Origin: an uncultured Flavobacteriales bacterium
GTDB taxonomy: Bacteria > Bacteroidota > Bacteroidia > Flavobacteriales > BACL11
Reading direction: 5' to 3'
NCBI GenBank assembly: GCA_950069165.1
Contig: CATMIT010000003.1
Span: 1-40,719 of the forward strand
DNA length: 40,719 nucleotides
Positions within the stretch are counted from its first letter, which is position 1. Each line of letters starts with the position of its first letter. Positions 22,031 through 38,669 of this stretch are shown here, one piece after another. The translations under genes were made by a program, and so were the position numbers. Under the pieces are notes generated by a model, which was given only the letters and a program-made list of their open reading frames with translations, had not been told where the DNA came from and searched no databases.

Positions 22031-22336
22031 ATGCGAAAACTAATACTGCTTTTAATTACACTTACTATAATAACAAATGTAAGTTATGCTTCTTTTCCTG
22101 TTACAAAACCTGAAGAGGTTCCAGATAATATGCCTTGGTATTTGCAAATCCTAGTTGGTTTTATTTTCGCAACACTATTTGCAATTGTTTACTATTTTTA
22201 TAAAAAATATAAAAGTTATAATTTAATTGAGGATGATAAAATAAGAGTAAGAAAGAAAACAAAATTTCAAATTACTATTGCTTTAATCGTACTTGGGTTT
22301 TTAATTCTTGGTATGTCAGCAATGTCTATGAATTAG
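22031..22336 (+). CDS. Small membrane protein, paralogue 1 of 3
   Basis: This is a 101-residue protein of unknown function. It begins with a signal peptide (MRKLILLLITLTIITNVSYA) and the mature N-terminus SFPV, which it shares with the next two genes. Two membrane helices follow (LQILVGFIFATLFAIVYYFY and IALIVLGFLILGMSAM), separated by a strongly basic loop (KKYKSYNLIEDDKIRVRKKTKF). The three genes lie head to tail with 3 and 11 bases between them. They share the export signal at both protein and DNA level but differ downstream, which suggests duplication followed by divergence. No catalytic motif is seen. Confidence 0.8.
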   Translation: MRKLILLLITLTIITNVSYASFPVTKPEEVPDNMPWYLQILVGFIFATLFAIVYYFYKKYKSYNLIEDDKIRVRKKTKFQITIALIVLGFLILGMSAMSMN

Positions 22337-22339
22337 AAA

Positions 22340-22660
22340 ATGAAAAAACTAATACTAATTTTAATAACGCTAACTACACTTACAAATGTGAGTTATGCTT
22401 CTTATCCTGTAACTGAAAGCCTACAAACTGAAATTATTGAAAACGCTACCATCCTCAATACGCCTGAGTCTTCTCTGTACATGATTTTGGGATTCTTTGT
22501 TGGGTTCTTTAGTTGGTTTCTCCTGCTTTTACCTCTTTTATTGTTGTTTGTTCCTAATAAAAGTTTCAGAATTGGGATTATTTCTGGCTTTTTGGTTATG
22601 CTTATTTTACTTGTATTCTTTTTAGGTGGTATTGGTTTTGGTTCTGTGATGGGGGGATAA
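22340..22660 (+). CDS. Small membrane protein, paralogue 2 of 3
   Basis: This 106-residue protein starts with nearly the same signal as its neighbours (MKKLILILITLTTLTNVSYA, then SYPV). Two helices follow (SLYMILGFFVGFFSWFLLLLPLLLLFV and IGIISGFLVMLILLVFFLGG), and the C-terminus is glycine-rich (GGIGFGSVMGG). The loop between them is only a few residues (PNKSFR), unlike the basic loop of paralogue 1. Function unknown. It is three bases downstream of paralogue 1 and presumably in the same transcript. Confidence 0.8.
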   Translation: MKKLILILITLTTLTNVSYASYPVTESLQTEIIENATILNTPESSLYMILGFFVGFFSWFLLLLPLLLLFVPNKSFRIGIISGFLVMLILLVFFLGGIGFGSVMGG

Positions 22661-22671
22661 AAAAGAAAACA

Positions 22672-22989
22672 ATGAAAAAATTACTCTTACTTTTAATTAC
22701 ACTTACTACATTTGTAAATGTGAGTTATGCTTCATTCCCTGTTGTTGCTAGTTTTGAAAATAAATTATCTACAAACATTCCGATTGGAGAGATTTTAGGA
22801 CCTTTGTTTGGTCTTACTCTACTGGTTACGGCATTTTATATTTTTAATCGATTTTTTAGAAAAGGTAATACTGTAAGAAGATGGATGTGGTAAAATTTTT
22901 GGTTATTACTTGGTTCCCTTGTATTGTTATTGATCTTAATTTTCGGTATAGTTATTGCAATTTATGGCGGTGGTGTTAGTGGTGGGTAA
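22672..22989 (+). pseudogene. Small membrane protein, paralogue 3 of 3, interrupted by TAA
   Basis: The frame opens with the shared signal (MKKLLLLLITLTTFVNVSYA, then SFPV), one membrane helix (EILGPLFGLTLLVTAFYIF) and a basic stretch (NRFFRKGNTVRRWMW). It then meets TAA at 22891-22893. In the same frame the sequence continues for 31 codons as a typical second helix and a glycine-rich end (WLLLGSLVLLLILIFGIVIAIYGGGVSGG) before a second stop at 22987-22989. The full length, 105 codons, matches its paralogues (101 and 106). A nonsense mutation in a once intact gene is the simplest reading. A functional 73-residue short form or a sequencing error cannot be excluded. Confidence 0.75.
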
Positions 22990-23049: not shown

Positions 23050-24681
23050 TTACATCATTCCTGGCATACCGCCACCACCCATAGGAGGCATAGCTGGTTC
23101 GTTTTCAGGAATATCAGCAATTACGCATTCAGTTGTAAGCAACATTCCCGCCACTGATGCCGCATGCTCTAAAGCAATACGAACTACTTTTACTGGGTCA
23201 ATAACCCCTGCTTTGTAGAGGTTTTCGTATTTTTCTGTTTTGGCATTAAAACCAAAATCTTCTTTTCCCTCTTTTATTTTAGCAACCACTACCGAGCTTT
23301 CCACACCAGCATTTTCTACTATTTGTCTTAGTGGCTCTTCCACTGCTCTTTCAATAATGCTGATACCTGTTTTCTCATCTTCATTTTCAGCTTTTACTTT
23401 AGAAAGCGAATCAGCAGCCCTTACAATAGCCACTCCACCACCTGGAACAATTCCTTCTTCCACAGCAGCTCTGGTTGCAGCTAATGCATCATCTACTCTG
23501 TCTTTCTTTTCTTTCATTTCAATTTCAGATGCAGCCCCAATGTACAACACCGCAACTCCACCAGCTAATTTAGCCAATCTTTCCTGTAGTTTTTCTCTAT
23601 CATAGTCAGAAGTGGTGCTTTCAATTTGTGCTTTGATTTGGTTTACTCTTGCTTTAATATCCGATTTGTTTCCTGCTCCATTTATAATGGTTGTATTGTC
23701 CTTATCAATTATAATTTTTTCAGCTCCTCCCAACATTTCAATAGTAGTTGCATCCAATTTAAAACCTCTTTCTTCCGACACTACAGTTCCTGATGTAAGA
23801 ATTGCGATATCTTCCAACATGGCTTTTCTTCTATCTCCAAACCCTGGCGCTTTAACGGCTGCTACTTTTAGGGACCCTCTTAGTTTGTTTACTACCAAAG
23901 TAGATAATGCTTCTCCATCCACATCTTCTGCAATAATTAAAAGTGGTCTTCCATCTTGTGCGGTTTGTTCCAATATTGGCAATAAGTCCTTCATTGCCGA
24001 TATCTTTTTGTCATAAATAAGGATATAAGGATTTTCCAGTTCGGTTTCCATTTTGTCGGCATCCGTAATAAAATAAGGAGAAAGGTAACCTCTGTCAAAC
24101 TGCATTCCTTCCACTACTTCCACAGTGGTTTCCGTTCCTTTTGCTTCCTCCACAGTAATAACCCCCTCTGTTTTTACTTTTTTCATTGCTTCCGCAATAA
24201 GTTCACCAATGATGTTGTCATTATTGGCAGAAATTGCCGCTACTTGCTCAATCTTCTCATAGCTATTTCCCACTTCTTTTGATTGTTTTTTAAGGTCAGC
24301 AACAATAGCCGCTACTGCTTTGTCAATTCCTCTTTTTAAATCCATTGGGTTCGCGCCAGCAGCTACATTTTTAAGTCCTGAACTAATTATTGCTTGTCCT
24401 AAAAGCGTTGCGGTAGTAGTACCATCTCCTGCCAAATCTGCAGTTTTTGATGCTACTTCTTTTAGCATTTGTGCACCCATGTTTTCGATAGGGTCTGCCA
24501 GTTCAATTTCTTTTGCTACAGTTACACCATCTTTTGTAATGGATGGTCCTCCAAATTTTTTGTCAATAATTACATTTCTTCCTTTTGGACCTAATGTAAC
24601 TTTTACTGCATTTGCAAGGGCATCTGCCCCTCTTTTAAGAGCATCTCTTGCCTGTGTGTCAAATGTGATTTCTTTTGCCAT
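23050..24681 (-). CDS. groEL: Chaperonin GroEL (60 kDa)
   Basis: GroEL is the ATP-driven folding chamber, working with the GroES lid in the cytoplasm. The 543 residues begin [39 protein letters not shown], contain GDGTTTAT near residue 86, and end in the characteristic flexible tail [12 protein letters not shown]. It lies 27 bases downstream of groES. Expression should follow the groES promoter, which here has a sigma-54-like candidate and tandem repeats upstream. Confidence 0.98.
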
Positions 24682-24708
24682 TTCATTTATTTTTTAGTTT
24701 ATTATTAA

Positions 24709-24990
24709 TTATCCGATTATTGCAAGTATGTCCGATTCCTTCATGATAAGGTAGTCCTCTCCATCATATTTAAGTTCGGTTCCAGCATATTTTCCATACA
24801 ATACTAAATCCCCTTTTTTTACAGTAATAGGATTGTCTTTTGTGCCTTTCCCTACAGCCACAATACTTCCTTTTTGTGGTTTTTCTTGTGCGGTATCAGG
24901 AATAATAATTCCAGAAGCTGTTTTGGTTTCTGCTGCAGATGGGTGCACAAGCACTCTATCTGCAAGAGGTGTAATTTTTGTTTTAGTCAT
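24709..24990 (-). CDS. groES: Co-chaperonin GroES (10 kDa)
   Basis: GroES forms the heptameric lid of the chaperonin. The 93 residues show the family pattern: [40 protein letters not shown], where the mobile loop ([11 protein letters not shown], about residues 20-31) binds GroEL, then [33 protein letters not shown]. It is the first gene of groESL. The leader between 24991 and 25152 holds promoter candidates and a three-copy repeat. Confidence 0.98.
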
Positions 24991-25022
24991 TTTTTATTTT
25001 TTTAATTTAAAATTTAGTTCTG

Positions 25023-25050
25023 CAAACTATAACTGCATAAAGCGTGCCAA
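25023..25050 (-). promoter_or_regulatory. Candidate sigma-54 (-24/-12) promoter of groESL, overlapping a sigma-A-like -7
   Basis: On the reverse strand TTGGCACG (25050-25043) is followed, after CTTT, by ATGCA (25038-25034). This matches the sigma-54 consensus YTGGCACG-N4-TTGCW at all but one base, and GG and GC are exactly 10 bases apart, as required. A housekeeping-type element, TAGTTTG (25029-25023), one base short of TAnnTTTG spacing, overlaps downstream, with the same TTG as a -33. Either or both may drive groES, whose ATG is about 33 bases past the expected start. The match is seen; use by sigma-54 is inferred. Confidence 0.6.
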
Positions 25051-25059
25051 ATGGGGCAA

Positions 25060-25151
25060 TGTGTAAGTTTGTCAGTTTTATTAGTGTTACTGTGTAAGTT
25101 TGTCAGTTTTATTAGTGTTACTGTGTAAGTTTGTCAGTTTTATTAGTGTTA
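25060..25151. repeat. Three tandem 31-bp repeats upstream of groES
   Basis: Copies lie at 25060-25090, 25091-25121 and 25122-25151. They are identical except for the final base. Each contains TTTGTCAGTTTT, which on the groES strand reads AAAACTGACAAA. The array fills the gap between the secG stop and the groES promoter. On the forward strand each unit also carries an exact TAAGTTTG (-7 type). There are no variable spacers, so it is not CRISPR. A binding-site array for an activator is a plausible role. Confidence 0.95.
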
Positions 25152-25152
25152 A

Positions 25153-25488
25153 CTATTGCTCTTCCTGTATAGGAGTGCCGACAGGCAAGTTCGGTATTTG
25201 CTGTGGCACAAGCGACTGATCGATTTGCTCTTGCATTATTGATTCTGGCTCATCTGTGTTTGTTCTTGGAATAGCAAAGTTAGAAAGCAAGCTAAGCGAA
25301 ATAAGTGCTATTGCCAATGTCCAAGTTGCTTTTTCCAAAAAGTCAGTGGTTTGTTTAGCGCCCATCATTTGGCTTGCCCCACCACCAAAAGTAGAAGAAA
25401 GTCCGCCTCCTTTTGGGTTTTGCACTAGCACAACTAACACCAGTAGAATACAGCAAATAATAATAAGGATTGCAAAAATTGTATACAT
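25153..25488 (-). CDS. secG: Preprotein translocase subunit SecG
   Basis: SecG is the small membrane subunit of SecYEG that aids protein export. The 111 residues start with a membrane helix (MYTIFAILIIICCILLVLVVLVQ). The cytoplasmic loop NPKGGGLSSTFGGGASQMMGAKQTTDFLEKATW, a reliable family signature, follows, then a second helix (LAIALISLSLLSNFAI). The tail is acidic and proline-rich. It is one base downstream of the TPR gene, at the end of the miaB-lptE unit. The groES leader starts 2 bases after its stop. Confidence 0.95.
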   Translation of the reverse strand: MYTIFAILIIICCILLVLVVLVQNPKGGGLSSTFGGGASQMMGAKQTTDFLEKATWTLAIALISLSLLSNFAIPRTNTDEPESIMQEQIDQSLVPQQIPNLPVGTPIQEEQ

Positions 25489-25489
25489 T

Positions 25490-26197
25490 TTATTTTTCTT
25501 TTAAGTCGTAAATTAATTTTATTTGGTTTGCAAAGGAACCACTTTTTTGTGGATATTTCAAACTTAATTTCTCATAAGCTGCTATGGCCTTTTTGTAATG
25601 CCCCTGTTCTAGATATACCCTTGCCAAAGTTTCGGTTACAATCTCCTGATTTTCTATTAAACTTTGCTCTGCCGATTTCGAAGGCGAGAAAAATTCTTCT
25701 CTTTTTGGCTTGTTGATCCTTGGCTCTTGCTCAATAAATTTGTTAATCAAATTTTCACTGCTTTGCTGTTTTCTGTCAATCTTTTTAACTTTTGTAAGTG
25801 CAAGCCACTCTGCAAAAGAATGGGTTTCATTTTCGGTGAATTCTAGTGGTTTGCCAATTTCCAATTCTTTTTCTGGGGTTGCTGTTTCTGGTTTTTGCTC
25901 TATCTTTACCATTTCTTTTTCAGCAGTTGGTTTCTCAATAATTTCCTCAGCAACTTTCACATTTTCAGTAATAAGATTGAAAAGTAGTTTCCTATTCCCA
26001 GCATAGGCAGCTGCCTTTCTGAGTTGAGAATTATAACTAATGCTATCGGTATTGTAAAGCCCTTTGGCGTAGAGAAGTTGCATGCTGGTGAAATAAGGAA
26101 ATGCCTGCAAACTAATGCGCATATCGGCAATTTCTGCTTTTCCAATATCCATTGGATTTTGTATATTTTCTATGAGTTTTTCGTTTCGCATTACCAA
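25490..26197 (-). CDS. TPR-like protein linked to lptE and secG
   Basis: This 235-residue protein has no signal peptide. Its C-terminal third shows a tetratricopeptide-like helix pair (ETLARVYLEQGHYKKAIAAYEKLSLKYPQKSGSFANQIKLI). The N-terminal ~70 residues are helical (AFPYFTSMQLLYAKGLYNTDSISYNSQLRKAAAYAGNRKLLFNLI), resembling a repeat found in Bacteroidota proteins at this location. The middle is charged, low-complexity sequence rich in Glu, Lys and Pro. It probably mediates protein contacts; a partner cannot be named. It overlaps lptE by 7 bases and precedes secG by 1, suggesting an envelope-export theme. Confidence 0.8.
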   Translation of the reverse strand: MVMRNEKLIENIQNPMDIGKAEIADMRISLQAFPYFTSMQLLYAKGLYNTDSISYNSQLRKAAAYAGNRKLLFNLITENVKVAEEIIEKPTAEKEMVKIEQKPETATPEKELEIGKPLEFTENETHSFAEWLALTKVKKIDRKQQSSENLINKFIEQEPRINKPKREEFFSPSKSAEQSLIENQEIVTETLARVYLEQGHYKKAIAAYEKLSLKYPQKSGSFANQIKLIYDLKEK

Positions 26198-26697
26198 TTC
26201 ACCACTGCTTTGTTGAAAATATCTTCTGCCAATTCGTTTGTAATCTGTTCGATTAAATCTTCTTCAACATCTGCTAAACTTTGGCTACTAACATAATCGG
26301 CATAACGAGAAAATTTTTGCTCAAAATTTTCGCTTTCATCTTTTGTATTTTCAAACTTTACTTTGACCACAATGGTTAAGCGGTTTTGTGCTGCCTGCTC
26401 ATTGGCTTGAATAGCAATGGGCTTTATTTCATATTTTACAATTTCTCCACTAAAATTTAAATCGCCTTCATCTGCTTCCAAGCTAAGGTTGGTTTGCTCC
26501 AAAAAATAATCTTTCAGCCGTTCGGTAAACACCTGGCTAAGGGTAGGCTGAATAGTAGCTGCACGGTTTGGAAAATACTGTACCGAAACCGTTTTCACAT
26601 CCGGCGAAATGGATGCGCCAGTAAAAGAATAAAAGCCACAAGAGCTTAAAAAAACCATACTAAAAACAACTGCTATTTTGCTACATAATTTAGGCAT
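26191..26697 (-). CDS. lptE: LptE-like lipopolysaccharide assembly lipoprotein
   Basis: LptE is the outer-membrane lipoprotein that plugs the LptD barrel and helps insert lipopolysaccharide. The 168 residues begin with a lipoprotein signal ending in the lipobox LSSC (Cys 20), then GFYSFTGASISPDVKTVSVQYFPNRA, the usual start of Bacteroidota LptE. VFTERLKDYFLEQTNLSL and, later, GEIVKYEIKPIA with NRLTIVVKVKFEN match the beta-alpha fold of the family. E. coli LptE similarity is low, so the call rests on the general pattern and gene order. It overlaps the upstream regulator gene by 1 base and the TPR gene by 7. Confidence 0.88.
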   Translation of the reverse strand: MPKLCSKIAVVFSMVFLSSCGFYSFTGASISPDVKTVSVQYFPNRAATIQPTLSQVFTERLKDYFLEQTNLSLEADEGDLNFSGEIVKYEIKPIAIQANEQAAQNRLTIVVKVKFENTKDESENFEQKFSRYADYVSSQSLADVEEDLIEQITNELAEDIFNKAVVNW

Positions 26698-27869
26698 TAC
26701 AAATCAAATTCTTTAATTTTTCTATACAATGTTCGTTCTGAAATCCCCAACTCTTCTGCCGCATATTTTCGCTTTCCTTTGTGTTTTCCCAAAGCCCTTT
26801 CAATCAATATTTTTTCTTGCTGAAAAAGGGATAAATTTTGCGAGACTTCAATGGTTTCTCCAGAATTTTTATTTGGCAACAAAGTTACATTTCCATCCGT
26901 CATATCATCAAATACTTTTGCAGAAGTTCCATCTGTTTGTCCTTGTTTTTGCATCAAATCCACAGTTATTTTCTTTAAATCCGTAAGATCTTTTTTCATA
27001 TCAAAAAGCACTTTGTAAAGAATCTCTCTTTCGGATAGCTCTCCGCTATTTTCTCCTTCAAAAAGCACAGGCATTTTCTGCTCAGTTGTACTTTTCGGAA
27101 TATAAGTATTCAAAGTATCGGCCGTAATATTTCTTTCTTTTTCAATAACTGAAATTTGCGCCACAAAGTTTTTCAGTTGACGGATATTTCCTGGCCAAGG
27201 GTAATTTTTTAGCATTTCCATAGCATCCTCACTAAGACGGATAGGAGGGGTGTTGTATTTGTCGGCAAAATCGGCTGCAAATTTTTTGAAAAGCAAATGT
27301 ATGTCTTCTTTACGATTTCGTAAAGCAGGAATTTGAATACTAACAGTATTCAAGCGGTAAAATAAATCCTCTCGGAATCTTCCTTTTCTAAGGGCCTCTT
27401 GTATATTCACATTGGTAGCCGCCACAATCCTTACATCTGTTTTTTGTGCTTTGGAAGAGCCTACTTTCATAAATTCACCACTTTCCAAAACACGCAACAA
27501 TCTTACTTGTGTAGATAATGGTAATTCTGCAACTTCATCTAAAAAAATAGTACCACCATCTGCCACTTCAAAGTATCCTTTTCTGGAATCGTGCGCGCCA
27601 GTAAATGCCCCTTTTTCATGTCCAAAAAGTTCCGAATCAATAGTCCCTTCTGGAATTGCGCCACAGTTTACAGCCACATAATTGTTGTGTTTTCTTTTGC
27701 TATTCTGATGAATTATTTTTGGAATACTTTCTTTTCCCGTTCCGCTTTCGCCATACACAAAAACAGAAATATCGGTAGGGGAAACTTGCAAGGCTACATC
27801 AATTGCACGAATTAGTTCAGCATCATTACCAATTATTCCAAATCTTTGTTTTGCCTGTTTTGTATCCAT
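26697..27869 (-). CDS. Sigma-54 interaction-domain (bEBP) transcriptional activator without receiver domain
   Basis: This 390-residue AAA+ activator opens sigma-54 promoters by ATP hydrolysis. Features in order are Walker A GESGTGKE (about 40-47), the sigma-54-contacting loop GAFTGA (about 87-92), Walker B GGTIFLDEVAELP (about 105-117), the arginine-finger region RFREDLFYRLN, sensor II WPGNIRQLKN, a ~100-residue linker and a C-terminal Fis-type helix-turn-helix (KRKYAAEELGISERTLYRKIKEF). There is no N-terminal receiver, GAF or PAS domain, so it may be controlled by a partner, by amount or by nothing, as with PspF. It is 1 base downstream of miaB and part of the miaB-secG unit. A sigma-54-like promoter lies in front of groES at the end of the same run of genes. 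Confidence 0.93.
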   Translation of the reverse strand: MDTKQAKQRFGIIGNDAELIRAIDVALQVSPTDISVFVYGESGTGKESIPKIIHQNSKRKHNNYVAVNCGAIPEGTIDSELFGHEKGAFTGAHDSRKGYFEVADGGTIFLDEVAELPLSTQVRLLRVLESGEFMKVGSSKAQKTDVRIVAATNVNIQEALRKGRFREDLFYRLNTVSIQIPALRNRKEDIHLLFKKFAADFADKYNTPPIRLSEDAMEMLKNYPWPGNIRQLKNFVAQISVIEKERNITADTLNTYIPKSTTEQKMPVLFEGENSGELSEREILYKVLFDMKKDLTDLKKITVDLMQKQGQTDGTSAKVFDDMTDGNVTLLPNKNSGETIEVSQNLSLFQQEKILIERALGKHKGKRKYAAEELGISERTLYRKIKEFDL

Positions 27870-27870
27870 T

Positions 27871-29319
27871 TTATATTACTTTTCCTTTGAGTGTTGCGGC
27901 TGTGCAGTCCTGAATCTGTACTTTTACATAAGTTCCTTTTTTATGTTTATTTTTAGCAAAAACAACTACTTTATTTTGCCTTGTTCTCCCATACAATTTT
28001 TCAGCAGATTTTTTGGAAGTTCCCTCAATCAAAACCTCATAAGTTTTGCCGATAGTTTCCTTATTTCTAAGTAAAGAATGCGCCATTTGTTTTTCAATTA
28101 TTTCGGTCAATCTTTTTTGTTTTATTTCCTCTGGGACATTATCTTTCCATTTCCTTTGCGCTGGAGTATTTGGTCTTTCAGAATACTTGAACATATAGCC
28201 AAAATCAAAAATTACTTTATCCATTAAACCCAAAGTATCTTTGTGGTCAATATCACTTTCAGTGCAAAATCCAGAAATCATATCCATGGAAACAGCACAA
28301 TCGGGCAAAATTTCGTGAATCTTTTCTATTCTTTGCAAATATTCTTCTTTGGTATAACCTCTGTTCATTTTTTTCAAAATATGATTGCTTCCAGATTGAA
28401 CAGGCAAATGAATGTAGTTGCAAATGTTGTCATATTTCGACATTATATGTAACACATCATCTGTCATGTCTTGCGGGTTAGATGTTGAAAATCGAATCCT
28501 CAATTTCGGACTTACCTTAGCAACTAATTCCATTAATTGAGCAAAACTCACACTCTCTTTTTGCTTTTTTTTATTTAAATTTTTGAACTCTTTTTTTAAT
28601 CCACCTCCATGCCAAAGGTAGGAATCTACATTTTGCCCTAAAAGGGTAACCTCCCTGAATCCATCCGCAATCAATTGCTTGCATTCCTTTACTATACTTT
28701 CCGGATCTCGGCTTCTCTCTCTGCCTCTTGTAAAAGGCACTACACAAAAAGTACACATATTATCGCAACCTCTAGTAATAGAAACAAAAGCCGTAACCCC
28801 ATTTCCGCCCAAACGAACAGGGCTAATTTCAGCATATGTTTCTTCTTTTGAGAGGATTACATTTACCGCTTTTCTGCCGTCATCCACTTGTTTTATAAGG
28901 TTAGGTAAATCTCGGTATGCATCTGGTCCTACCACAATATCTACTAACTTTTCCTCTTCCAAAAATTTTTCTTTTAACCTTTCGGCCATACAGCCCAAAA
29001 CACCGACAATCATTCCTGGGTTTTTCTTTTTCTTAATGGAATTATAGACTTGCAATCTTTTTCTTATCGTTTGTTCGGCCTTTTCTCTGATTGAGCAAGT
29101 ATTTACAAATACCAAATCAGCCTTTTCAATATCCTTTGTAGTTGAAAATCCTTCTCCAGAAAGTATGGAGGCTACAATCTCAGAATCGGAGAAATTCATC
29201 TGGCAACCATAACTTTCTATATACACTTTTTTACTGTCATTTTTAGCAGTAGAAAGCGATAATGATTCACCTTGTCTTTTTTCGTCTATCTGTTTTTCTA
29301 TCAAATTCTCAAAATCCAT
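27871..29319 (-). CDS. miaB: tRNA-2-methylthio-N6-dimethylallyladenosine synthase
   Basis: MiaB is a radical-SAM enzyme that adds a methylthio group to i6A37 of tRNAs reading UNN codons. The N-terminal MTTase domain has three cluster cysteines in YGCQMN (about 37-42), [11 protein letters not shown] and [10 protein letters not shown]. The radical-SAM motif is [22 protein letters not shown] (about 177-198). [21 protein letters not shown] and a C-terminal TRAM domain (about 410-482) complete it. Its length of 482 residues is normal. It heads the reverse-strand run miaB-activator-lptE-TPR-secG, with a good promoter at 29339-29371. Confidence 0.96.
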
Positions 29320-29338
29320 TTTCTTTATTTTCGGGCAG

Positions 29339-29371
29339 CAAAGTTAAATAAAAAATCTGTCAAACTGACAA
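29339..29371 (-). promoter_or_regulatory. miaB promoter with overlapping inverted repeat
   Basis: On the reverse strand an exact -7 element TAACTTTG (29346-29339) lies 22 bases downstream of TTG (29371-29369), within the known spacing. The inverted repeat TGTCA-AAC-TGACA (29358-29370) sits in the spacer and reaches the -33 TTG, an ideal place for a repressor. The AAACTGACAA half is the same 10-mer found in the groES repeats. The promoter is well supported by sequence; the operator is inferred. Confidence 0.6.
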
Positions 29372-29436
29372 TGTGGCAGAATTTCAATTTTCTTATATTA
29401 TTTATAATATAATGGATGTGTCAGTAAAAATTGGAT

Positions 29437-29468
29437 TTGGATAAGTTAAAAAAACTTTATTTTCTTTG
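29437..29468 (+). promoter_or_regulatory. Candidate topA promoter
   Basis: TTG (29437-29439) and TTTCTTTG (29461-29468) are 21 bases apart. The -7 element differs from TAnnTTTG at one base. The topA ATG lies 30 bases further. TGTCAGT (29419-29425), a partial copy of the motif in the groES repeats, lies upstream. An AT-rich inverted repeat TATATTA-TTTA-TAATATA just before it may bend or melt the DNA. Confidence 0.45.
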
Positions 29469-29498
29469 CACAAAATTTAGAAATCAAATAATTAAGGT

Positions 29499-31814
29499 AT
29501 GAGTAAGAATTTAGTAATTGTAGAATCGCCAGCAAAGGCAAAAACTATTGAAGGATATTTAGGAAAAGATTTTTTAGTAAAATCTAGCATTGGGCATATA
29601 CGGGACCTTCCGAAAAAAGGAGGAATGGCAATTGATATTGAAAATGGGTTTAAGCCAAAATATATTATTTCGGAGGATAAAAAGAAAGTAGTAAGCGAAT
29701 TAAAGGCGGCAGCCAAAAAAGCAGAAGTAGTTTGGCTTGCTACAGATGAGGACCGAGAAGGGGAAGCAATTGCTTGGCATTTGACAGAAGCTCTTGGTTT
29801 GGATAAAAGCACGACTAAAAGAATTGTCTTTCATGAGATTACAAAAAAGGCAATAACACATGCGGTGGAAAATCCTAGGCAATTAGACCAAAACTTAATT
29901 GACGCTCAACAAGCGCGTAGGATTTTAGACAGATTGGTGGGTTTTGAGTTATCTCCAATTTTGTGGAAAAAAATAAAACCAGGACTCTCGGCAGGGCGTG
30001 TGCAATCGGTTGCCTTAAAACTAATTGTAGAAAGAGAAAAAGAGATAATCAACTTTAAAAGCGTTTCTACATTTAGAGTATCAGCAGAATTCAGAACTAA
30101 TGATGGGAAGCAATTTAAAGCAGAACTTCCCAAACGATTAAATACCATAAAAGAGGCACATGAATTTTTGGAGAAATGCAAGTCAGCTGAATTCAAAATA
30201 GAAAATATTGAAAAGAAGCCTTCAAAAAGATCTCCTTCTGCCCCATTTACTACTTCAACTCTGCAACAAGAAGCTTCAAGGAAATTGGGTTTTTCGGTAA
30301 CACAAACCATGATGGTTGCACAAAAACTATACGAATCAGGAAAAATTACCTATATGAGAACCGATAGTGTGAATCTTTCACAAGACGCACTCTCATCTGC
30401 TGCAACTGCAATTAGCAATTCTTATGGAGAAATTTATGCCAAAAGGAGAACTTTCAGTACAAAAATAAAGGGTGCACAGGAAGCTCATGAGGCCATACGC
30501 CCAACCGATATGAGTAAAAATATAATTGATGGGGAAAGCGCACATCAAAAACTATATGCACTTATCTGGAAAAGAACAATTGCTTCTCAAATGGCAGAAG
30601 CGCAAATAGACAGAACCATTGCCACAATAAGTGTTTCTACTACTGATGAGCACTTTATTGCAAAGGGGGAGATGATTACTTTTGATGGTTTTATGAAAGT
30701 ATATTTGGAAGGAAAAGATGATGAAACAGAAAGTGAAAAAGGAATGCTTCCTTCATTAGAGTTAGGTGCTTTGGTTGGGGCTGATGAAATTTTAGGACTA
30801 GAAAGGTTCAGCAAACATCCGCCAAGATATGCAGAGGCGAGTTTGGTAAAAAAATTAGAAGAATTAGGAATAGGACGACCATCCACTTATGCCAGCACAA
30901 TTACTACTATTCAAAACAGAGAATATGTTACAAAACAAACAACAGAAGCTAAGCAAAGGGAAATTCGGGCAATCATTGTGAAAAACACTGAACTGAAAGA
31001 AGAAAAACGACAGGAGAATTATGGAGCAGAAAAGGGTAAATTATTTCCAACATCAGAGGGAACTGTGGTTTGCGATTTTCTGGAAGAGAATTTTAATAAT
31101 ATCATGGATTATGGTTTTACCTCCTCTGTGGAAAGCGAATTTGATGATATTGCAGAAGGCAAGAAAGTTTGGAATGAAATGATAGCGGATTTTTATGGTC
31201 CTTTCCACCAAAAAGTATTGGAAGTGGATGAAACTGCCGAAAGAGCATCTGGTGAGCGACTTTTAGGAGAAGATCCAAAAAGTGGTGACAATGTGTATGC
31301 AAGAGTTGGAAGATTTGGGCCAATGGTGCAAATTGGAGAAATGCAACAATCGGATGATGCACCAAAACCAAAATACGCTTCCATTATTGGGGAACAAACC
31401 GTTCAAACCATTACTTTAGAACAAGCTTTGGAACTTTTCAGATTACCGAGAGTAGTTGGAGAATTTGAAGTAGAAGAAGTGGTTGCCGCTATTGGAAGGT
31501 TCGGTCCTTATTTAAGGCATAAAGGCAAATTTACTTCCATCAAAAAAACGGATGAAGAAGATCCTTTAACGATAAAATTGGATAGAGCAATTGAACTCAT
31601 CAAAATAAAAATTCAAGCTGATAAAGATAGGTTGATTAATAATTTTGAAGGCGAGCCACTTATTCAAGTTTTGAATGGAAGATACGGCCCATTTGTGCAA
31701 GTTACTCCTGAAAAAGGTAAGAAAATTAATCTTAAAATACCGAAAGATACTGAGCCAAAAAGTTTAAATAGAGAAGATTGTTTATCTTTGCTGAAAGAGC
31801 AAAAGAAAAAATAA
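29499..31814 (+). CDS. topA: DNA topoisomerase I (type IA)
   Basis: This enzyme relaxes negative supercoils by nicking and passing one strand. The TOPRIM domain begins NLVIVESPAKAKTIEGYLG and carries the metal-binding DEDREGEAIAWH (about 83-94). The DNA-gate domain holds the catalytic tyrosine in ITYMRTDSVNLS (near residue 285) and GRPSTYASTI. The C-terminal part, instead of zinc fingers, has repeats with GRFGPMVQIG, GRFGPYLRHKGKFTSI and GRYGPFVQV, the usual Bacteroidota arrangement. Its length of 771 residues is normal for the phylum. The next gene is 6 bases downstream in the same frame. Confidence 0.97.
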   Translation: MSKNLVIVESPAKAKTIEGYLGKDFLVKSSIGHIRDLPKKGGMAIDIENGFKPKYIISEDKKKVVSELKAAAKKAEVVWLATDEDREGEAIAWHLTEALGLDKSTTKRIVFHEITKKAITHAVENPRQLDQNLIDAQQARRILDRLVGFELSPILWKKIKPGLSAGRVQSVALKLIVEREKEIINFKSVSTFRVSAEFRTNDGKQFKAELPKRLNTIKEAHEFLEKCKSAEFKIENIEKKPSKRSPSAPFTTSTLQQEASRKLGFSVTQTMMVAQKLYESGKITYMRTDSVNLSQDALSSAATAISNSYGEIYAKRRTFSTKIKGAQEAHEAIRPTDMSKNIIDGESAHQKLYALIWKRTIASQMAEAQIDRTIATISVSTTDEHFIAKGEMITFDGFMKVYLEGKDDETESEKGMLPSLELGALVGADEILGLERFSKHPPRYAEASLVKKLEELGIGRPSTYASTITTIQNREYVTKQTTEAKQREIRAIIVKNTELKEEKRQENYGAEKGKLFPTSEGTVVCDFLEENFNNIMDYGFTSSVESEFDDIAEGKKVWNEMIADFYGPFHQKVLEVDETAERASGERLLGEDPKSGDNVYARVGRFGPMVQIGEMQQSDDAPKPKYASIIGEQTVQTITLEQALELFRLPRVVGEFEVEEVVAAIGRFGPYLRHKGKFTSIKKTDEEDPLTIKLDRAIELIKIKIQADKDRLINNFEGEPLIQVLNGRYGPFVQVTPEKGKKINLKIPKDTEPKSLNREDCLSLLKEQKKK

Positions 31815-32972: not shown

Positions 32973-33063
32973 ATGTTTTCAGTTTCTTCTGATTTTTTAC
33001 CTATTAAATAAAAAATGTCTATTTTAGCGACCGTAAAACTTATAAATAACGATAAAATTGAAT

Positions 33064-33969
33064 ATGAAAAGAACGATATTATCTCTGTCTTTTTTGCTGA
33101 TTGCAGGGCTTGTTTTTTCACAGCAAGACCCTCAGTTTAGTCAAAATATGTTCAACAAATTAGCCAATAACCCTGGCTATGCGGGGAGCAATCAAGCTAT
33201 TTGTGTAACAATGCTTCACCGCTCACAATGGATGGGCTTTGAAGGTGCACCAACTACACTTAATTTGAGTGTGGATGCTGGCATCCCTGCTATTCATGGA
33301 GGAGTAGGGCTTAATATTGTAAAGGACAATATTGCGGCATTTAGCAATTTAGGATTACAATTAACCTATGCTTACCGAACAGATTTAGGAAATGGACAAA
33401 TGGGGGCAGGACTATCTTTAGGGATGTTTCAAAGTGGTGCTGACGGAGGTTGGTTTGATCCAGCTCAATCTGGTGATGCGGTAATCCCAACTGGTGATGA
33501 AAAGGGTTCTGCTATGGATTTTGGATTTGGCGTTTATTATAACACACAAGATGTATATATAGGTCTCTCCACTTCTCACTTTACCGAGCCAACAATTGAG
33601 TGGTCAAATAGCCAAATGGAATTAGCAAGACATTATTTTCTTATTGCTGGTTATGCGCATGAGTTAAATCCTATGTTTACGCTTAATCCTTCTATTTATT
33701 TAAAATCGGATGGTGCTTCCTCCCAATTAGATATTAACACCAATGTATTGTACAATAATAAGCTATGGGGAGGCGTTAGTTACAGGTTAGATGAAGGATT
33801 AATTGCCCTTTTAGGAATGCATATAACGGACGATTTAAAATTTGGTATAGCATATGATGTTGTAATGTCGGAGATACAAAATAACAGTTTAGAATTTATG
33901 TTGGGATATTGTTTCCAGGTTTCCTACGACAGACCTATGAAAAGTTACAAAAACCCAAGGTTCTTATAA
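33064..33969 (+). CDS. porP: PorP/SprF-family type IX secretion outer-membrane protein
   Basis: PorP/SprF proteins are outer-membrane barrels that work with the gliding motor and secretion complex. This one has 301 residues, a signal peptide (MKRTILSLSFLLIAGLVFSQQ) and the family start DPQFSQNMFNKLANNPGYAGSNQAICVTMLHRSQW. A run of beta-strands with alternating glycines follows (HGGVGLNIVKDNIAAFSNLGLQLTYAYRTDL), ending RPMKSYKNPRF. The start is ATG 33064; the listed TTG at 33058 adds two residues only. Its position directly before gldK matches porP-porK-porL-porM-porN of Porphyromonas gingivalis. Flavobacteria often carry many sprF-like copies, so the exact orthologue is uncertain. Confidence 0.9.
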   Translation: MKRTILSLSFLLIAGLVFSQQDPQFSQNMFNKLANNPGYAGSNQAICVTMLHRSQWMGFEGAPTTLNLSVDAGIPAIHGGVGLNIVKDNIAAFSNLGLQLTYAYRTDLGNGQMGAGLSLGMFQSGADGGWFDPAQSGDAVIPTGDEKGSAMDFGFGVYYNTQDVYIGLSTSHFTEPTIEWSNSQMELARHYFLIAGYAHELNPMFTLNPSIYLKSDGASSQLDINTNVLYNNKLWGGVSYRLDEGLIALLGMHITDDLKFGIAYDVVMSEIQNNSLEFMLGYCFQVSYDRPMKSYKNPRFL

Positions 33970-34043
33970 ATTGAAAAAAAATAACAAATCATTATGCGTT
34001 GTAAGAAGATGTATGATGATTTTTAAAATTAAAGAGTAATCAT

Positions 34044-34062
34044 TTTCGCTTGAGGAGCGAAA
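34044..34062 (+). other. Hairpin in the gldK leader
   Basis: TTTCGCT (34044-34050) and AGCGAAA (34056-34062) form a 7-bp stem around loop TGAGG, 14 bases before the gldK ATG. There is no T run after it, so it is not a normal terminator. It may stabilise the 5' end after processing or affect gldK translation. Confidence 0.55.
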
Positions 34063-34076
34063 CAAAAATAAAAACT

Positions 34077-35381
34077 ATGAAAAAAATATTATTTTTTGGA
34101 TTAATTATTACGATTTTAAGCAGTTGCGGTAATTCTGGTAATGGCGAACTAATTGGAATCCAAGATAGAGCTATTTGGCAACCAATGGATCCTTACGGAA
34201 TGGTTTTTATTCCACAAGGTAGTTTTGTAATGGGTCCCTCTGACCAAGATGTACCTTTTGCTAATGTAACTGCTGCAAAAATGGTTTCTGTTGGAGCTTT
34301 CTATATGGACGAAACAGAAATAACAAATAATGAATATCGACAATTCACCAATTGGGTAAGGGATTCAATTGCTCATAGGATTCTTGGAGATGCAGGCATA
34401 GAAGGGCATTTGATTGAAGAAGATGAATATGGTAATTTCATAGAGCCAGCACTTATTAATTGGAAAGAAAAAATTAGATGGGATGATATTGAAGTGAGAG
34501 AAATACTGGAAGAGGAAATGTATTTACCTGAGCATGAAAGATTCAATAGAATGAGAGAAATTGATACTAGAAAGCTTATCTATGCGTATCAAGAAATGGA
34601 TTTGAAAAAAGCAGCACAAAAAGCAAATAGAGAAAATGATGCTACTGGAAAAAGAGACCGTTCCGTATTCTTAAAAGATGTTGAGGTAAGTATTTTCCCA
34701 GATACTCTTGCTTGGATGCACGATTATACTTATTCCTTTAATGAGCCAATGACAGATGAGTATTTTTGGCATCCTGCTTTTGATGACTACCCAGTGGTGG
34801 GAATCAATTGGAATCAAGCAGTTGCCTTTACTAAATGGAGAACACAAATGATGAATAGTTTCCTTAGAAGAAATAACGAACCAACACTTCCTGATTTTAG
34901 ATTACCAACAGAATCGGAATGGGAATATGCCGCTAGAGGTGGAATGGATTTATCGCCATATCCTTGGGGAGGACCGTATACCAGAAATCATAAAGGATGT
35001 TTTTTAGCTAATTTTAAACCACTTAGAGGAAATTATACAGCAGATGGCGGTTTGCGTTCAGTGAAAGTGGCAAGTTATAATCCTAATGCTTATGGCTTGT
35101 ATGATATGGCTGGAAATGTTTCAGAATGGACTTCAAATACTTTTGATGAATCTGCATTTAGCTATGCACATGATATGAATATGGACTATACTTTAACTGC
35201 TGAGGATTCTGATTCAGAAGTATTGAAAAGAAAAGTAATTAGAGGGGGTTCTTGGAAAGACATATCCTACTTTATACAAACTAGTACAAGGGATTTCGAA
35301 TACCAAGATACAGCAAAATGCTATATTGGATTTAGATGTACTGTGGATTTCTTAGGAAGGGATAAACAAGATTTTGAATAA
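34077..35381 (+). CDS. gldK: Type IX secretion/gliding lipoprotein GldK (PorK)
   Basis: GldK is an outer-membrane lipoprotein that with GldN forms the periplasmic ring of the type IX secretion system. The 434 residues have a lipoprotein signal ending ILSSC (Cys 17), followed by NSGNGELIGIQDRAIWQPMDPYGMVFIPQGSFVMG. A formylglycine-generating-enzyme-like (FGE/SUMF) domain follows, with FYMDETEITNNEYRQF, GINWNQAVAFTKWR, FRLPTESEWEYAARGG and YDMAGNVSEWTSN, ending FIQTSTRDFEYQDTAKCYIGFRCT. The listed start TTG 34050 lies before the signal; ATG 34077 is used. It is the first gene of gldKLMN. FGE activity is not expected in GldK. Confidence 0.95.
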   Translation: MKKILFFGLIITILSSCGNSGNGELIGIQDRAIWQPMDPYGMVFIPQGSFVMGPSDQDVPFANVTAAKMVSVGAFYMDETEITNNEYRQFTNWVRDSIAHRILGDAGIEGHLIEEDEYGNFIEPALINWKEKIRWDDIEVREILEEEMYLPEHERFNRMREIDTRKLIYAYQEMDLKKAAQKANRENDATGKRDRSVFLKDVEVSIFPDTLAWMHDYTYSFNEPMTDEYFWHPAFDDYPVVGINWNQAVAFTKWRTQMMNSFLRRNNEPTLPDFRLPTESEWEYAARGGMDLSPYPWGGPYTRNHKGCFLANFKPLRGNYTADGGLRSVKVASYNPNAYGLYDMAGNVSEWTSNTFDESAFSYAHDMNMDYTLTAEDSDSEVLKRKVIRGGSWKDISYFIQTSTRDFEYQDTAKCYIGFRCTVDFLGRDKQDFE

Positions 35382-35408
35382 AAATAAATTAAATTAAAAA
35401 ACGAAAAA

Positions 35409-36056
35409 ATGACAATAAAGGAATTAGCAAATAAACCGGGATTTAAACTGTTTATGTCTCGTTTGTATGGGTGGGGTGCTTCTTTAGTAATCCTGGGAGC
35501 TTTATTTAAAATAGAACATTATCCAGGAGCAAGCATAATGTTAGGTTTAGGGTTAGGCACTGAAGCAGTAATCTTTTTCTTTTCCGCTTTTGAAACACCA
35601 AAGGAAGATCCAGATTGGAGTTTAGTTTATCCTGAATTGGCTTATATGAAAGACCCTGACAAAATAGGCACACCTGCTCAGCAGTTAGACAAAGCACTAG
35701 AAAGAGCTAAAATTGAAGATGAGTTAATTGAAAGCTTAGGAGATGGGCTTAGAAAATTTGGCGAAACGGCAACAAAGTTAAACGAAACGGTTGAGGCAGC
35801 TGGCGCTATTTCTGAGTACAATCAGCAAATACAAGAGGGTGTGAAAAATATGAACGCACTGAATTCATTATATGAATTACAATTACAAACTTCTTCACAG
35901 CAAATGGAAGCATCCACCCAATTCTTACAAAATTTGAGCACTTCCATTGAAGACTCAAAGCGTTTCCAGCAAGAAGTTGGTAAATTAGCAGAAAACCTAT
36001 CGGCACTTAACAAAGTGTATGGTAATATGCTAAATGCAATGAATCCGAATAAATAA
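35409..36056 (+). CDS. gldL: Type IX secretion motor subunit GldL (PorL)
   Basis: GldL sits in the inner membrane and forms with GldM the proton-driven rotary motor of gliding and type IX secretion. The 215 residues start with two membrane helices (LYGWGASLVILGALFKIEHYPGA and IMLGLGLGTEAVIFFFSAF). The family signature with conserved acidic and basic residues in the membrane region is GALFKIEHYPGA and TEAVIFFFSAFE. A long cytoplasmic helical part from about residue 90 contains coiled-coil segments (LLQ-like heptads near YELQLQTSSQQMEAS). It lies 27 bases from gldK and 20 bases from gldM. Confidence 0.96.
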   Translation: MTIKELANKPGFKLFMSRLYGWGASLVILGALFKIEHYPGASIMLGLGLGTEAVIFFFSAFETPKEDPDWSLVYPELAYMKDPDKIGTPAQQLDKALERAKIEDELIESLGDGLRKFGETATKLNETVEAAGAISEYNQQIQEGVKNMNALNSLYELQLQTSSQQMEASTQFLQNLSTSIEDSKRFQQEVGKLAENLSALNKVYGNMLNAMNPNK

Positions 36057-36076
36057 AAATTTTAAGAAAAGAATAA

Positions 36077-37789
36077 ATGGCAGGCAATCACCCCAGTGAG
36101 TTAAGTCCCCGGCAGAGGATGATAAATATGATGTATTTAGTGCTAACAGCACTACTTGCACTTAATGTATCAAAAGAGGTATTGGAGTCTTTCTTTGAAG
36201 TGAATAAAGGTATAGAAAGAACCACCACGAACTTTTTTTCAAAGAATGTAGAAACGTATTCTGATTTTGATAAAGCAGCAAAGAATAATCCAGAGAAATA
36301 TAAAACTGTTAGAGATAAAGCATACGAGATTAAGGAAATGTCTAATGACCTTATTATGCTAATTCAGGAGATGAAGTATGATTTAGTATATCGCACTGAT
36401 AAGCGAGAAGTTTATCTTGGGGAAGATTGGGAAATTTTTGATGAAGAAGGGAAATTAAAGGAGGAGACACTAATTGAAGATATAAAATTTGAAGAATTGA
36501 CTTTAACTCAAAAGCATCAGAAAATTGGATGGTTACAAAATAAATCAGATAGAAGTACTTCTGGAGATTTGTTTTGGCCAAAAGGCAAAAAGGACAATAG
36601 AGCTAAAAAATTAAAAGATGAAATTATCAAACTTGGTGATTTTTTAATGGAGGTTTCTGGAGACAACAAACAGTTAGTAAAAAGTATTGAATCATCTACT
36701 GATGTTAGCGATAGAAAAAGGAAAAAGAAGAAAATAAGCTGGGAAGAGTATTATTTTTATGATATGCCAGCGGTTGGCGCTTTAACATTACTATCTAAGA
36801 TGCAATCAGATGTAAGAAATGCGGAAGCTAATGTTATTGATTTTCTAAAAAAAGACATAGATGCAAAATCGTTAAAATTTACTTCTGCTGAAGGAATTGC
36901 AATTCCAGAAAGAAATTTTGTTTTAAGAGGAGATAGTTTCAAAGCAGAGATTTTTATTACTGCAAAAAATGAGAGTCAGAATCCTGATATTTATGTAGGG
37001 GAATACGATAGTATAGGTGGTGGAGAATATCAAATGATTGGGGATTATGAGATAGTAAAAGTTAAGAATGGAAAAGGTTTGTTTGCAACAAGAACTACTT
37101 CAGAAGGAATAAAAAAATGGGGAGGATTGATCGCTATGAAAACTGAATCAGGGACTAAATACTATCCTTTTGGTGGCGAATATTTAGTGGCCTCAAAATC
37201 TGTTGTAGTTTCTCCTATCAATATGAATGTGTTTTATTTAGAGGTAGATAATCCTGTAAAAATATCTGTTCCTGGGTTTGCTGCTACTGATATTACTGCC
37301 TCCATGTCAAATGGAAATTTAAGGGCAACAAAAAAATCGGTTGGAGAATACATTGCACGACCTACAAAAAAAGGAAAAGCTAGGGTTACTTTATTTGCAA
37401 CTATTGATGGGAAAAGAACAAAAATGGGGGCAGTTGAATTTAGAGTAAAAGAGGTGCCGCCACCAAAACCACTTATTGGTGGAAAATCAGAAGGGGTAAT
37501 TGAAAAGCAAAGAATGTTAGCTGCCGGGGGTATACAAGCCAAGCTAGAAGATTTTGATTTTAAAGGCGTTAGATATAAGGTTGTTGCTTATTCTTTTACC
37601 ACTGTCTATAAAGGAGATCAGGTTACAGAAACTGTAAACGGACAAAAATTTACTACTAAAATTAATGCAATTATAAATAATACAAAATCAGGTAATACTA
37701 TTACAGTATCTAATATTATGGCAAGAAGAACAGATGCTAAAGGTACAGCAACCAGATCATTACCTCCACTAGTTTTAAAAATTAAATAA
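36077..37789 (+). CDS. gldM: Type IX secretion motor subunit GldM (PorM)
   Basis: GldM spans the periplasm from the motor to the GldK-GldN ring. The 570 residues begin AGNHPSELSPRQRMINMMYLVLTALLALNVSKEVLESF, with a single membrane helix at about 17-34. A helical domain and several periplasmic beta domains follow (for example VSPINMNVFYLEVDNPVKISVPGF and ITASMSNGNLRA, with KVVAYSFTTVYKGDQ in the last domain). Known GldM/PorM are about 515 residues; the extra length appears in the charged stretch at roughly 110-190 (EIFDEEGKLKEETLIEDIKFEE and WPKGKKDNRAKKLK), suggesting an insertion in the first domain. Confidence 0.95.
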   Translation: MAGNHPSELSPRQRMINMMYLVLTALLALNVSKEVLESFFEVNKGIERTTTNFFSKNVETYSDFDKAAKNNPEKYKTVRDKAYEIKEMSNDLIMLIQEMKYDLVYRTDKREVYLGEDWEIFDEEGKLKEETLIEDIKFEELTLTQKHQKIGWLQNKSDRSTSGDLFWPKGKKDNRAKKLKDEIIKLGDFLMEVSGDNKQLVKSIESSTDVSDRKRKKKKISWEEYYFYDMPAVGALTLLSKMQSDVRNAEANVIDFLKKDIDAKSLKFTSAEGIAIPERNFVLRGDSFKAEIFITAKNESQNPDIYVGEYDSIGGGEYQMIGDYEIVKVKNGKGLFATRTTSEGIKKWGGLIAMKTESGTKYYPFGGEYLVASKSVVVSPINMNVFYLEVDNPVKISVPGFAATDITASMSNGNLRATKKSVGEYIARPTKKGKARVTLFATIDGKRTKMGAVEFRVKEVPPPKPLIGGKSEGVIEKQRMLAAGGIQAKLEDFDFKGVRYKVVAYSFTTVYKGDQVTETVNGQKFTTKINAIINNTKSGNTITVSNIMARRTDAKGTATRSLPPLVLKIK

Positions 37790-37796
37790 TTTTATC

Positions 37797-38669
37797 ATGA
37801 AAAATCTTATTTTACTATTTATTTCGTTCTTGATGATTTCCATAACAGGAAATGCACAAGATATTTTAGATGGCGCTTACGATCGTAAGACAACTTATGA
37901 AAATAGAAAAGTGCAACCCTATCCGCATTTAAGACAAGCAGATGTAATGTGGTCTAGAAAAATTTGGCGCGAAATTGATTTGCGTGAAAAAGTAAATCAT
38001 CCTTTTTATTATCCTGCTATTCAGCCAGGGAATAACCAACCAAACGATAGAAGAAGTTTGATAGATGTAATAATGGATGCAGTAATTGAAGGAAGTATTA
38101 CTGCTTATGCCAATGCTATTTATGATGATGAGTTTAAGGTGGAAATGACACAAGAGGATATTAAAAAGATTGGAGGAGCTAGGGAAGAAATAATGCAGAT
38201 AATCGATTGGTCCAGTGATGTAGAAGATGCAGTAACAGACACATTAATAAAGGTTGCATTTGACAGAACAACAGTAAAAAAATGGAGAATAAAAGAAGAG
38301 TGGTATTTCGATAAGCAAAGATCCGTTATGGATGTAAGAATTATTGGAATTTGCCCAATGCAAGAAGGAAAAGATGAGATTACTGGTGAGCCAACCGGCT
38401 TTTTCGACCCTCTATTCTGGGTATATTTTCCTGATGCACGGCCAATTCTTGCCAATGCGGAGATATTCAACTTGATGAAAAATGATGCAGAAAGAAGGAC
38501 TTATGATGATATTTTCTGGAAAAGAATGTTCTCCTCCTACATCATAAAAGAATCGAATGTGATGGATAGAAAGGTAAATGAATACATGATTGGCTTAGAT
38601 GCCATCTTAAAATCAGAAGAAATAAAAGCAGAGATTTTTAATATTGAACATGATTTGTGGGAGTATTAA
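37797..38669 (+). CDS. gldN: Type IX secretion/gliding protein GldN (PorN)
   Basis: GldN is the periplasmic partner of GldK in the ring around the outer-membrane translocon. The 290 residues have a signal peptide (MKNLILLFISFLMISITGNAQ), then DILDGAYDRKTTYENRKVQPYPHLRQADVMWSRKIWREIDLREKVNHPFYYP, which is diagnostic, as is KKWRIKEEWYFDKQRSVMDVRIIGICPM and RRTYDDIFWKRMFSSYIIKESN. It is 7 bases from gldM. A strong terminator starts 22 bases after its stop, so the porP-gldKLMN run ends here. Confidence 0.96.
   Translation: MKNLILLFISFLMISITGNAQDILDGAYDRKTTYENRKVQPYPHLRQADVMWSRKIWREIDLREKVNHPFYYPAIQPGNNQPNDRRSLIDVIMDAVIEGSITAYANAIYDDEFKVEMTQEDIKKIGGAREEIMQIIDWSSDVEDAVTDTLIKVAFDRTTVKKWRIKEEWYFDKQRSVMDVRIIGICPMQEGKDEITGEPTGFFDPLFWVYFPDARPILANAEIFNLMKNDAERRTYDDIFWKRMFSSYIIKESNVMDRKVNEYMIGLDAILKSEEIKAEIFNIEHDLWEY

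Follow-up and report, generated by a model that had tools for sequence, protein, structure and literature searches.

Introduction

Within the Bacteroidota, promoters of the sigma-54 type are already documented in front of chaperone genes. In the related Flavobacterium psychrophilum (F. psychrophilum), mapped sigma-54 starts with -24/-12 motifs precede GroES-GroEL, DnaK, and GrpE-DnaJ (PMC9723704). The regulon described there (SM4) is wide, taking in Lon, HtpG, ClpB, and gliding genes, and the organism has three PF00158 proteins, none of which is assigned as the activator (PMC9723704). A motif study across the Bacteroidota predicts that GroEL, GroES, GrpE, DnaK, and DnaJ are under sigma-54, most strongly in the Flavobacteriia; this cluster is a promoter-motif statistic over genomes, given in the available text without an activator, a binding site, or a link to gene order (PMC12316311).

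Activators of the PspF/HrpRS type combine an AAA+ domain containing GAFTGA with a Fis-type helix-turn-helix and have no N-terminal sensor. Such sensorless sigma-54 activators are controlled in trans (PMC7057263). Enhancer sites usually lie 100-150 bp from the promoter and require looping (PMC7057263), and FleQ is known to act from promoter-proximal sites (PMC6120874).

Here we describe a groESL locus in a 40,719-nucleotide stretch of DNA ("the window") from an uncultured Flavobacteriales bacterium. The original prediction, made from the letters alone, placed a candidate sigma-54 promoter in front of groES and suggested that the chaperonin operon may be wired to a neighboring activator gene.

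Results

On the minus strand of the window, groES (24709..24990; Pfam Cpn10, 5.9e-34) and groEL (23050..24681; Pfam Cpn60, 2.4e-78; TIGR02348 above its cut-off) lie downstream of an operon of conserved gene order, miaB-activator-lptE-TPR gene-secG (25153..29319), that leads into groESL. This order is kept in the Flavobacteriales, where groES-groEL follow the block, and in several other Bacteroidia; in the Bacteroidales, groES is not placed after secG. As in the window, a sigma-54 regulator gene of F. psychrophilum adjoins lptE, with its start 3.3 kb from the groES start (PMC9723704).

The promoter upstream of groES, read directly from the sequence, is TTGGCACG-CTTT-ATGCA (25034..25050, minus strand). 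Without its last A, the element occupies 25035-25050. Its -24 GG and -12 GC are exactly 10 bases apart, as in the sigma-54 pattern TGGCAC-N5-TTGC, and a single base differs from the consensus TTGGCACGNNNNTTGC, as the original prediction had it. This is the top sigma-54 consensus match of the window, for which a first-order Markov simulation gave a chance expectation of about 0.12 sites per 40.7 kb (at most one mismatch, GG fixed). A looser count, allowing up to three mismatches, was uninformative, with 36 matches in the window against 41.7 expected. Pattern searching of the 1.46-Mb genome returned seven sites with at most one mismatch, and only those of groES and dnaK are both intergenic and at the head of a gene. 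Since the column of the mismatched A is about equally A, T, or G among relatives, this base is no deviation within the family. The element ends 44 nt ahead of the groES ATG; the distance of about 33 bases given earlier counts from position 25023, the edge of a TAGTTTG sequence (25023-25029) that roughly coincides with the predicted sigma-54 transcription start, at about 25023.

Comparison of groES leaders revealed that the promoter is conserved. TGGCA occurs within 110 nt of the groES start in 27/30 family leaders (0.7 expected); among the other Bacteroidia, 47/49 leaders contain TGGCA (2.0 expected). When the family leaders were aligned on TGGCA alone, so that the -12 bases played no part in the anchoring, all 27 carried TG-N-A as the -12 element at the exact sigma-54 spacing. 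GG-N10-G(C) is kept in relatives; in 27/47 of the other Bacteroidia leaders, the -12 element reads GA, not GC. Three family leaders (L087, L088, and L097) have lost TGGCA before groES despite the presence of rpoN and the activator. In the groES leaders L044, L051, L061, and L066, we also noted a terminator-like hairpin, TGCCAGC...GCTGGCATTTTTT, which occupies the secG-groES gap of many Flavobacteriaceae-like relatives and itself holds TGTCA and TGGCA.

The leaders also bear on the alternative that groESL has an ordinary sigma-A promoter of the Bacteroidota type, built on TAGTTTG, and that the sigma-54 match arose by chance. The -7 box consensus, as given in the F. psychrophilum report, is TAnnTTTG (PMC9723704). 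It is resembled by TATAGTTTG at 25023-25031, and TAGTTTG is retained in L070. However, the spacing in the window is TA-N3-TTTG or TA-N-TTTG, a misfit to TAnnTTTG, and L071, a congener like L070, reads TAATTTT. No conserved TAnnTTTG box emerged from the leaders, since it occurs in 1/27 family and 3/47 other Bacteroidia sequences, while TGGCA-N7-TG is nearly invariant. A sigma-A promoter as the source of groESL transcription is therefore very improbable. Its conservation led us to reject chance as the origin of the sigma-54 site.

The genome contains one intact rpoN, which encodes a 445-aa RpoN with activator-interacting (AID), core-binding (CBD), and DNA-binding (DBD) domains. With rpoN present and the -24/-12 bases conserved, two of the objections foreseen in the original prediction fall away, and its interpretation is supported. 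The activator gene (26697..27869, minus strand) is the sole strong match to PF00158, the other matches being weak and to other AAA+ ATPases. It lies between 1.7 kb (3′ end) and 2.9 kb (5′ end) from groES, in agreement with the distance of under 3 kb first proposed. The lack of any other strong sigma-54 activator in the genome strengthens its link to groES. Among 52 family genomes, rpoN was detected in 43, and exactly one strong sigma-54 activator was found in 45. Family genomes lacking rpoN or the activator are mostly incomplete assemblies, yet two that are 95-96% complete lack the activator.

Chaperonin genes are commonly controlled in bacteria by HrcA and CIRCE, and this general pattern would favor the same control of groESL here. 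However, HrcA was found in 0/52 family genomes, and inspection of the groES leader by eye revealed no CIRCE inverted repeat, leaving this form of control with practically no weight. In Bradyrhizobium, the nif-linked groESL3 is an extra groESL copy under sigma-54 and NifA. In contrast, the window's groES is the only one detected, and its control is conserved across a class. Bradyrhizobium groESL3 had been offered as the known parallel; it is indeed a groESL operon under sigma-54, but not the closest one, as sigma-54 control of groESL is documented within the phylum (PMC9723704, PMC12316311).

The activator has, in order, an AAA+ domain containing GAFTGA, a lid, a linker, and a Fis-type helix-turn-helix (Pfam Sigma54_activat, 3.8e-67; HTH_8). 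With the motifs GESGTGKE, GAFTGA, and GGTIFLDE, and an AAA+ domain that begins at residue 12 of 390, leaving no N-terminal sensor domain, it has the features of a sensorless enhancer-binding protein of the PspF/HrpRS type. The nearest solved structures are NtrC-type AAA+ domains, FleQ, and PspF. It is not a PspF orthologue, as it scores 273 bits against TIGR02974, whose curated cut-off is 444, and it further differs from PspF in its conserved EREILYKVLFDM-type linker helix and its proposed targets, the cytosolic chaperones. Across 45 activator sequences, nearly all of them from Bacteroidota, this helix, EREILYKVLFDM..DL.DLKK (residues ~280-305), is conserved, and the recognition helix, GISERTLYRKI, hardly changes. 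The linker helix may be where a trans-acting inhibitor docks.

Upstream of the -24 element, groES leaders carry a 15-bp dyad, roughly CTGNCA-N3-TGNCAG. In the window, three minus-strand copies of CTGACAAACTTACAC stand 10, 41, and 72 bp from the groES promoter: a proximal copy, the predicted activator-binding site (25061..25075), a second copy 31 bp farther upstream (25092..25106), and a third another 31 bp upstream (25123..25137). These copies lie in a perfect 3.0 x 31-bp tandem repeat (25060..25151; Tandem Repeats Finder, 100% matches) that fills the secG-groES gap and has a unit of about three helical turns. Since the two closest congeners, L070 and L071, carry a single dyad without the tandem repeat, the triplication is either recent or an assembly artefact.

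The position of the dyad is phased. Each of the 27 TGGCA-bearing family leaders places the dyad either 10-11 or 20-22 bp from the promoter, with no intermediate values; the two classes are a helical turn apart, and the gaps are in phase for a 10.5-bp period (R = 0.94). Dyad scores of at least 8/10 were obtained for 17/27 family and 40/47 other Bacteroidia leaders, compared with 1.3-1.4% in simulations. The half-site TG[ACT]CA is present in 27/27 family leaders (3.1 expected) and in 42/47 of the others (5.7 expected). Among the 42 to 43 half-site leaders of the other Bacteroidia, 33 have a TGTCA whose end is exactly 11 nt from the -24 element on its upstream side. Searched genome-wide with two mismatches, the dyad pattern gave 179 sites against 122 for a reversed control. 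By itself, this pattern lacks the stringency to delimit a regulon and has to be combined with the -24/-12 element.

Scoring also places a further dyad copy, CTGCCACATTGTCAG (29365..29379, minus strand), at the miaB-activator operon promoter, 18 bp ahead of a sigma-A -7 box, TAACTTTG (29339..29346, minus strand). Upstream of miaB, the dyad scored at least 8/10 in 26/27 loci and at least 9 in 23 (shuffle frequency of 9: 0.0007), mostly 15-19 bp ahead of the -7 box and thus over the -33 region. Because the dyad covers this region of a sigma-A promoter, its position suggests that the activator represses its own operon.

The same promoter type stands before two other chaperone operons, both in the window's genome and in that of the relative G344. 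Ahead of dnaK, the window's genome carries CTGACTATCTGTCAG, a gap of 31 bp, and TTGGCACACTTATTGC, and ahead of grpE-dnaJ it carries CTGACAAATTGTCCT, a gap of 10 bp, and CTGGCAAAGTAATTGCA; dnaJ, downstream of grpE, was recognized from its first residues, MAKRDYYEVLG. We scanned all 1.92 Mb of G344 with a matrix trained without that genome's own site, using ATG-only ORFs to define intergenic gaps. The groES match led the intergenic list with 22.9 bits, grpE came next with 13.3, and dnaK took fourth place with 13.0. The third match, before a rhodanese-like gene, has no properly placed dyad and is probably due to chance, and the dnaK dyad of G344 is one base out of register. The gene for the large Clp ATPase has no site in its leader in the window's genome or G344; in the former, judged by its N-terminus, this 851-aa protein resembles ClpC and not ClpB. 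Neither G000 nor G344 yielded HtpG.

These sites also help to weigh the alternative that a genuine sigma-54 promoter is accompanied by a dyad of some other regulator, with the neighboring activator serving other genes or having no specific site. A gap of 10-22 bp to the -24 element is unusual for an enhancer-binding protein and far shorter than the customary 100-150 bp (PMC7057263), although FleQ is a known example of activation at short range (PMC6120874). FleQ itself carries a REC domain and serves flagellar targets, whereas in the window's system the spacing is quantised in helical turns. Against another regulator, the genome has no second strong activator, the dyad recurs in 26/27 genomes at the promoter of the operon that encodes the activator, it accompanies the sigma-54 promoters of dnaK and grpE, and the activator's recognition helix hardly varies. 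We consider ownership of the dyad by another regulator unlikely, and favor the neighboring activator as the protein that would bind it.

GroEL is normally essential, so that a basal supply of groESL is needed. This need could be served by read-through from miaB-activator-lptE-TPR-secG, which would provide most groESL expression, with the sigma-54 promoter adding only a stress-induced part. The genes are tightly ordered, and no minus-strand terminator-like site was found between secG and groES or elsewhere within 24500-29600. However, many Flavobacteriaceae have a T-tailed hairpin in the secG-groES gap, and the Bacteroidales separate groES from secG. A predominance of read-through is thus possible but on balance doubtful; it would be compatible with a sigma-54 promoter controlled by the neighboring activator, which we continue to prefer.

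Two further regions of the window drew attention. At 22031-22960 (plus strand), three successive frames for small membrane proteins have near-identical N-termini (KLILxLITLT..TNVSYAS); they appear to be a tandemly duplicated gene, the third copy of which looks interrupted. At 33058-38669 (plus strand), judged by translations only, a PorP/SprF-like gene stands ahead of genes resembling gldK-L-M-N, a gliding/type IX secretion cluster.

Discussion

Together, our results favor a model in which a true sigma-54 promoter drives groESL and the neighboring activator binds the phased dyads, as part of a sigma-54 system for chaperones. We put the probability of this reading at roughly 0.8. In the model, sigma-54 RNA polymerase would be held at the groESL promoter as a closed complex. 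The activator (26697-27869) would bind CTGNCA-N3-TGNCAG dyads 10-11 or 20-22 bp (one or two helical turns) upstream of the -24 element, or three turns upstream at dnaK, would contact the sigma-54 holoenzyme from there, and would open the promoter through its GAFTGA loop and ATP hydrolysis. Under stress, the same pair would also drive dnaK and grpE-dnaJ. By occupying the dyad that overlaps the -33 region of the miaB-activator operon's sigma-A promoter, the activator would most likely repress its own operon. Lacking a sensor domain, it is probably controlled in trans; our guess is that chaperone availability may be what is sensed, perhaps via the conserved linker helix. The promoter and its conservation, the single sigma-54 and activator, the phased dyads, and the further chaperone targets are read from sequence, whereas dyad binding by the activator, self-repression, and chaperone sensing are inferred.

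If the same sigma-54 and activator drive dnaK and grpE-dnaJ, sigma-54 would be the chaperone (heat-shock type) sigma factor of a lineage without HrcA. From the promoters found, sigma-54 probably acts as the heat-shock (chaperone) control in this Bacteroidota bacterium with a small genome. Compared with F. psychrophilum, where the regulon is wider, we found in the window's genome one sigma-54, one activator, and three chaperone operons; the F. psychrophilum report, in its accessible part, describes no dyad (PMC9723704). We tentatively propose, while thinking it somewhat less probable than its opposite, that sigma-54 of this family has been reduced to a dedicated heat-shock factor, with one sensorless activator encoded in the groESL operon region, phased promoter-proximal dyads, and hardly any targets besides the GroE and DnaK chaperone operons. 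In this proposal, the activator would repress its own operon and be switched by the availability of chaperones, forming a feedback loop without HrcA, and the enhancer of this strain would have been triplicated recently in helical register.

The groESL promoter is of a kind already known in the phylum. The proposed assignment of activator to dyad and the reduced system of one sigma factor and one activator look new: in the open-access literature, outside which most subscription journals lie, we found no description of the dyad or of this activator's targets, and no report of the activator link, the phased dyad, the dyad at the activator's operon, or the one-sigma, one-activator reduction.

Chaperone induction in Bacteroidota that lack HrcA is poorly described, and one candidate activator and one putative binding site can now be named for it. 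The locus would also offer a clear example in which sigma-54 serves cytosolic protein folding and an activator works one to three helical turns upstream of the -24 element instead of from 100-150 bp away.
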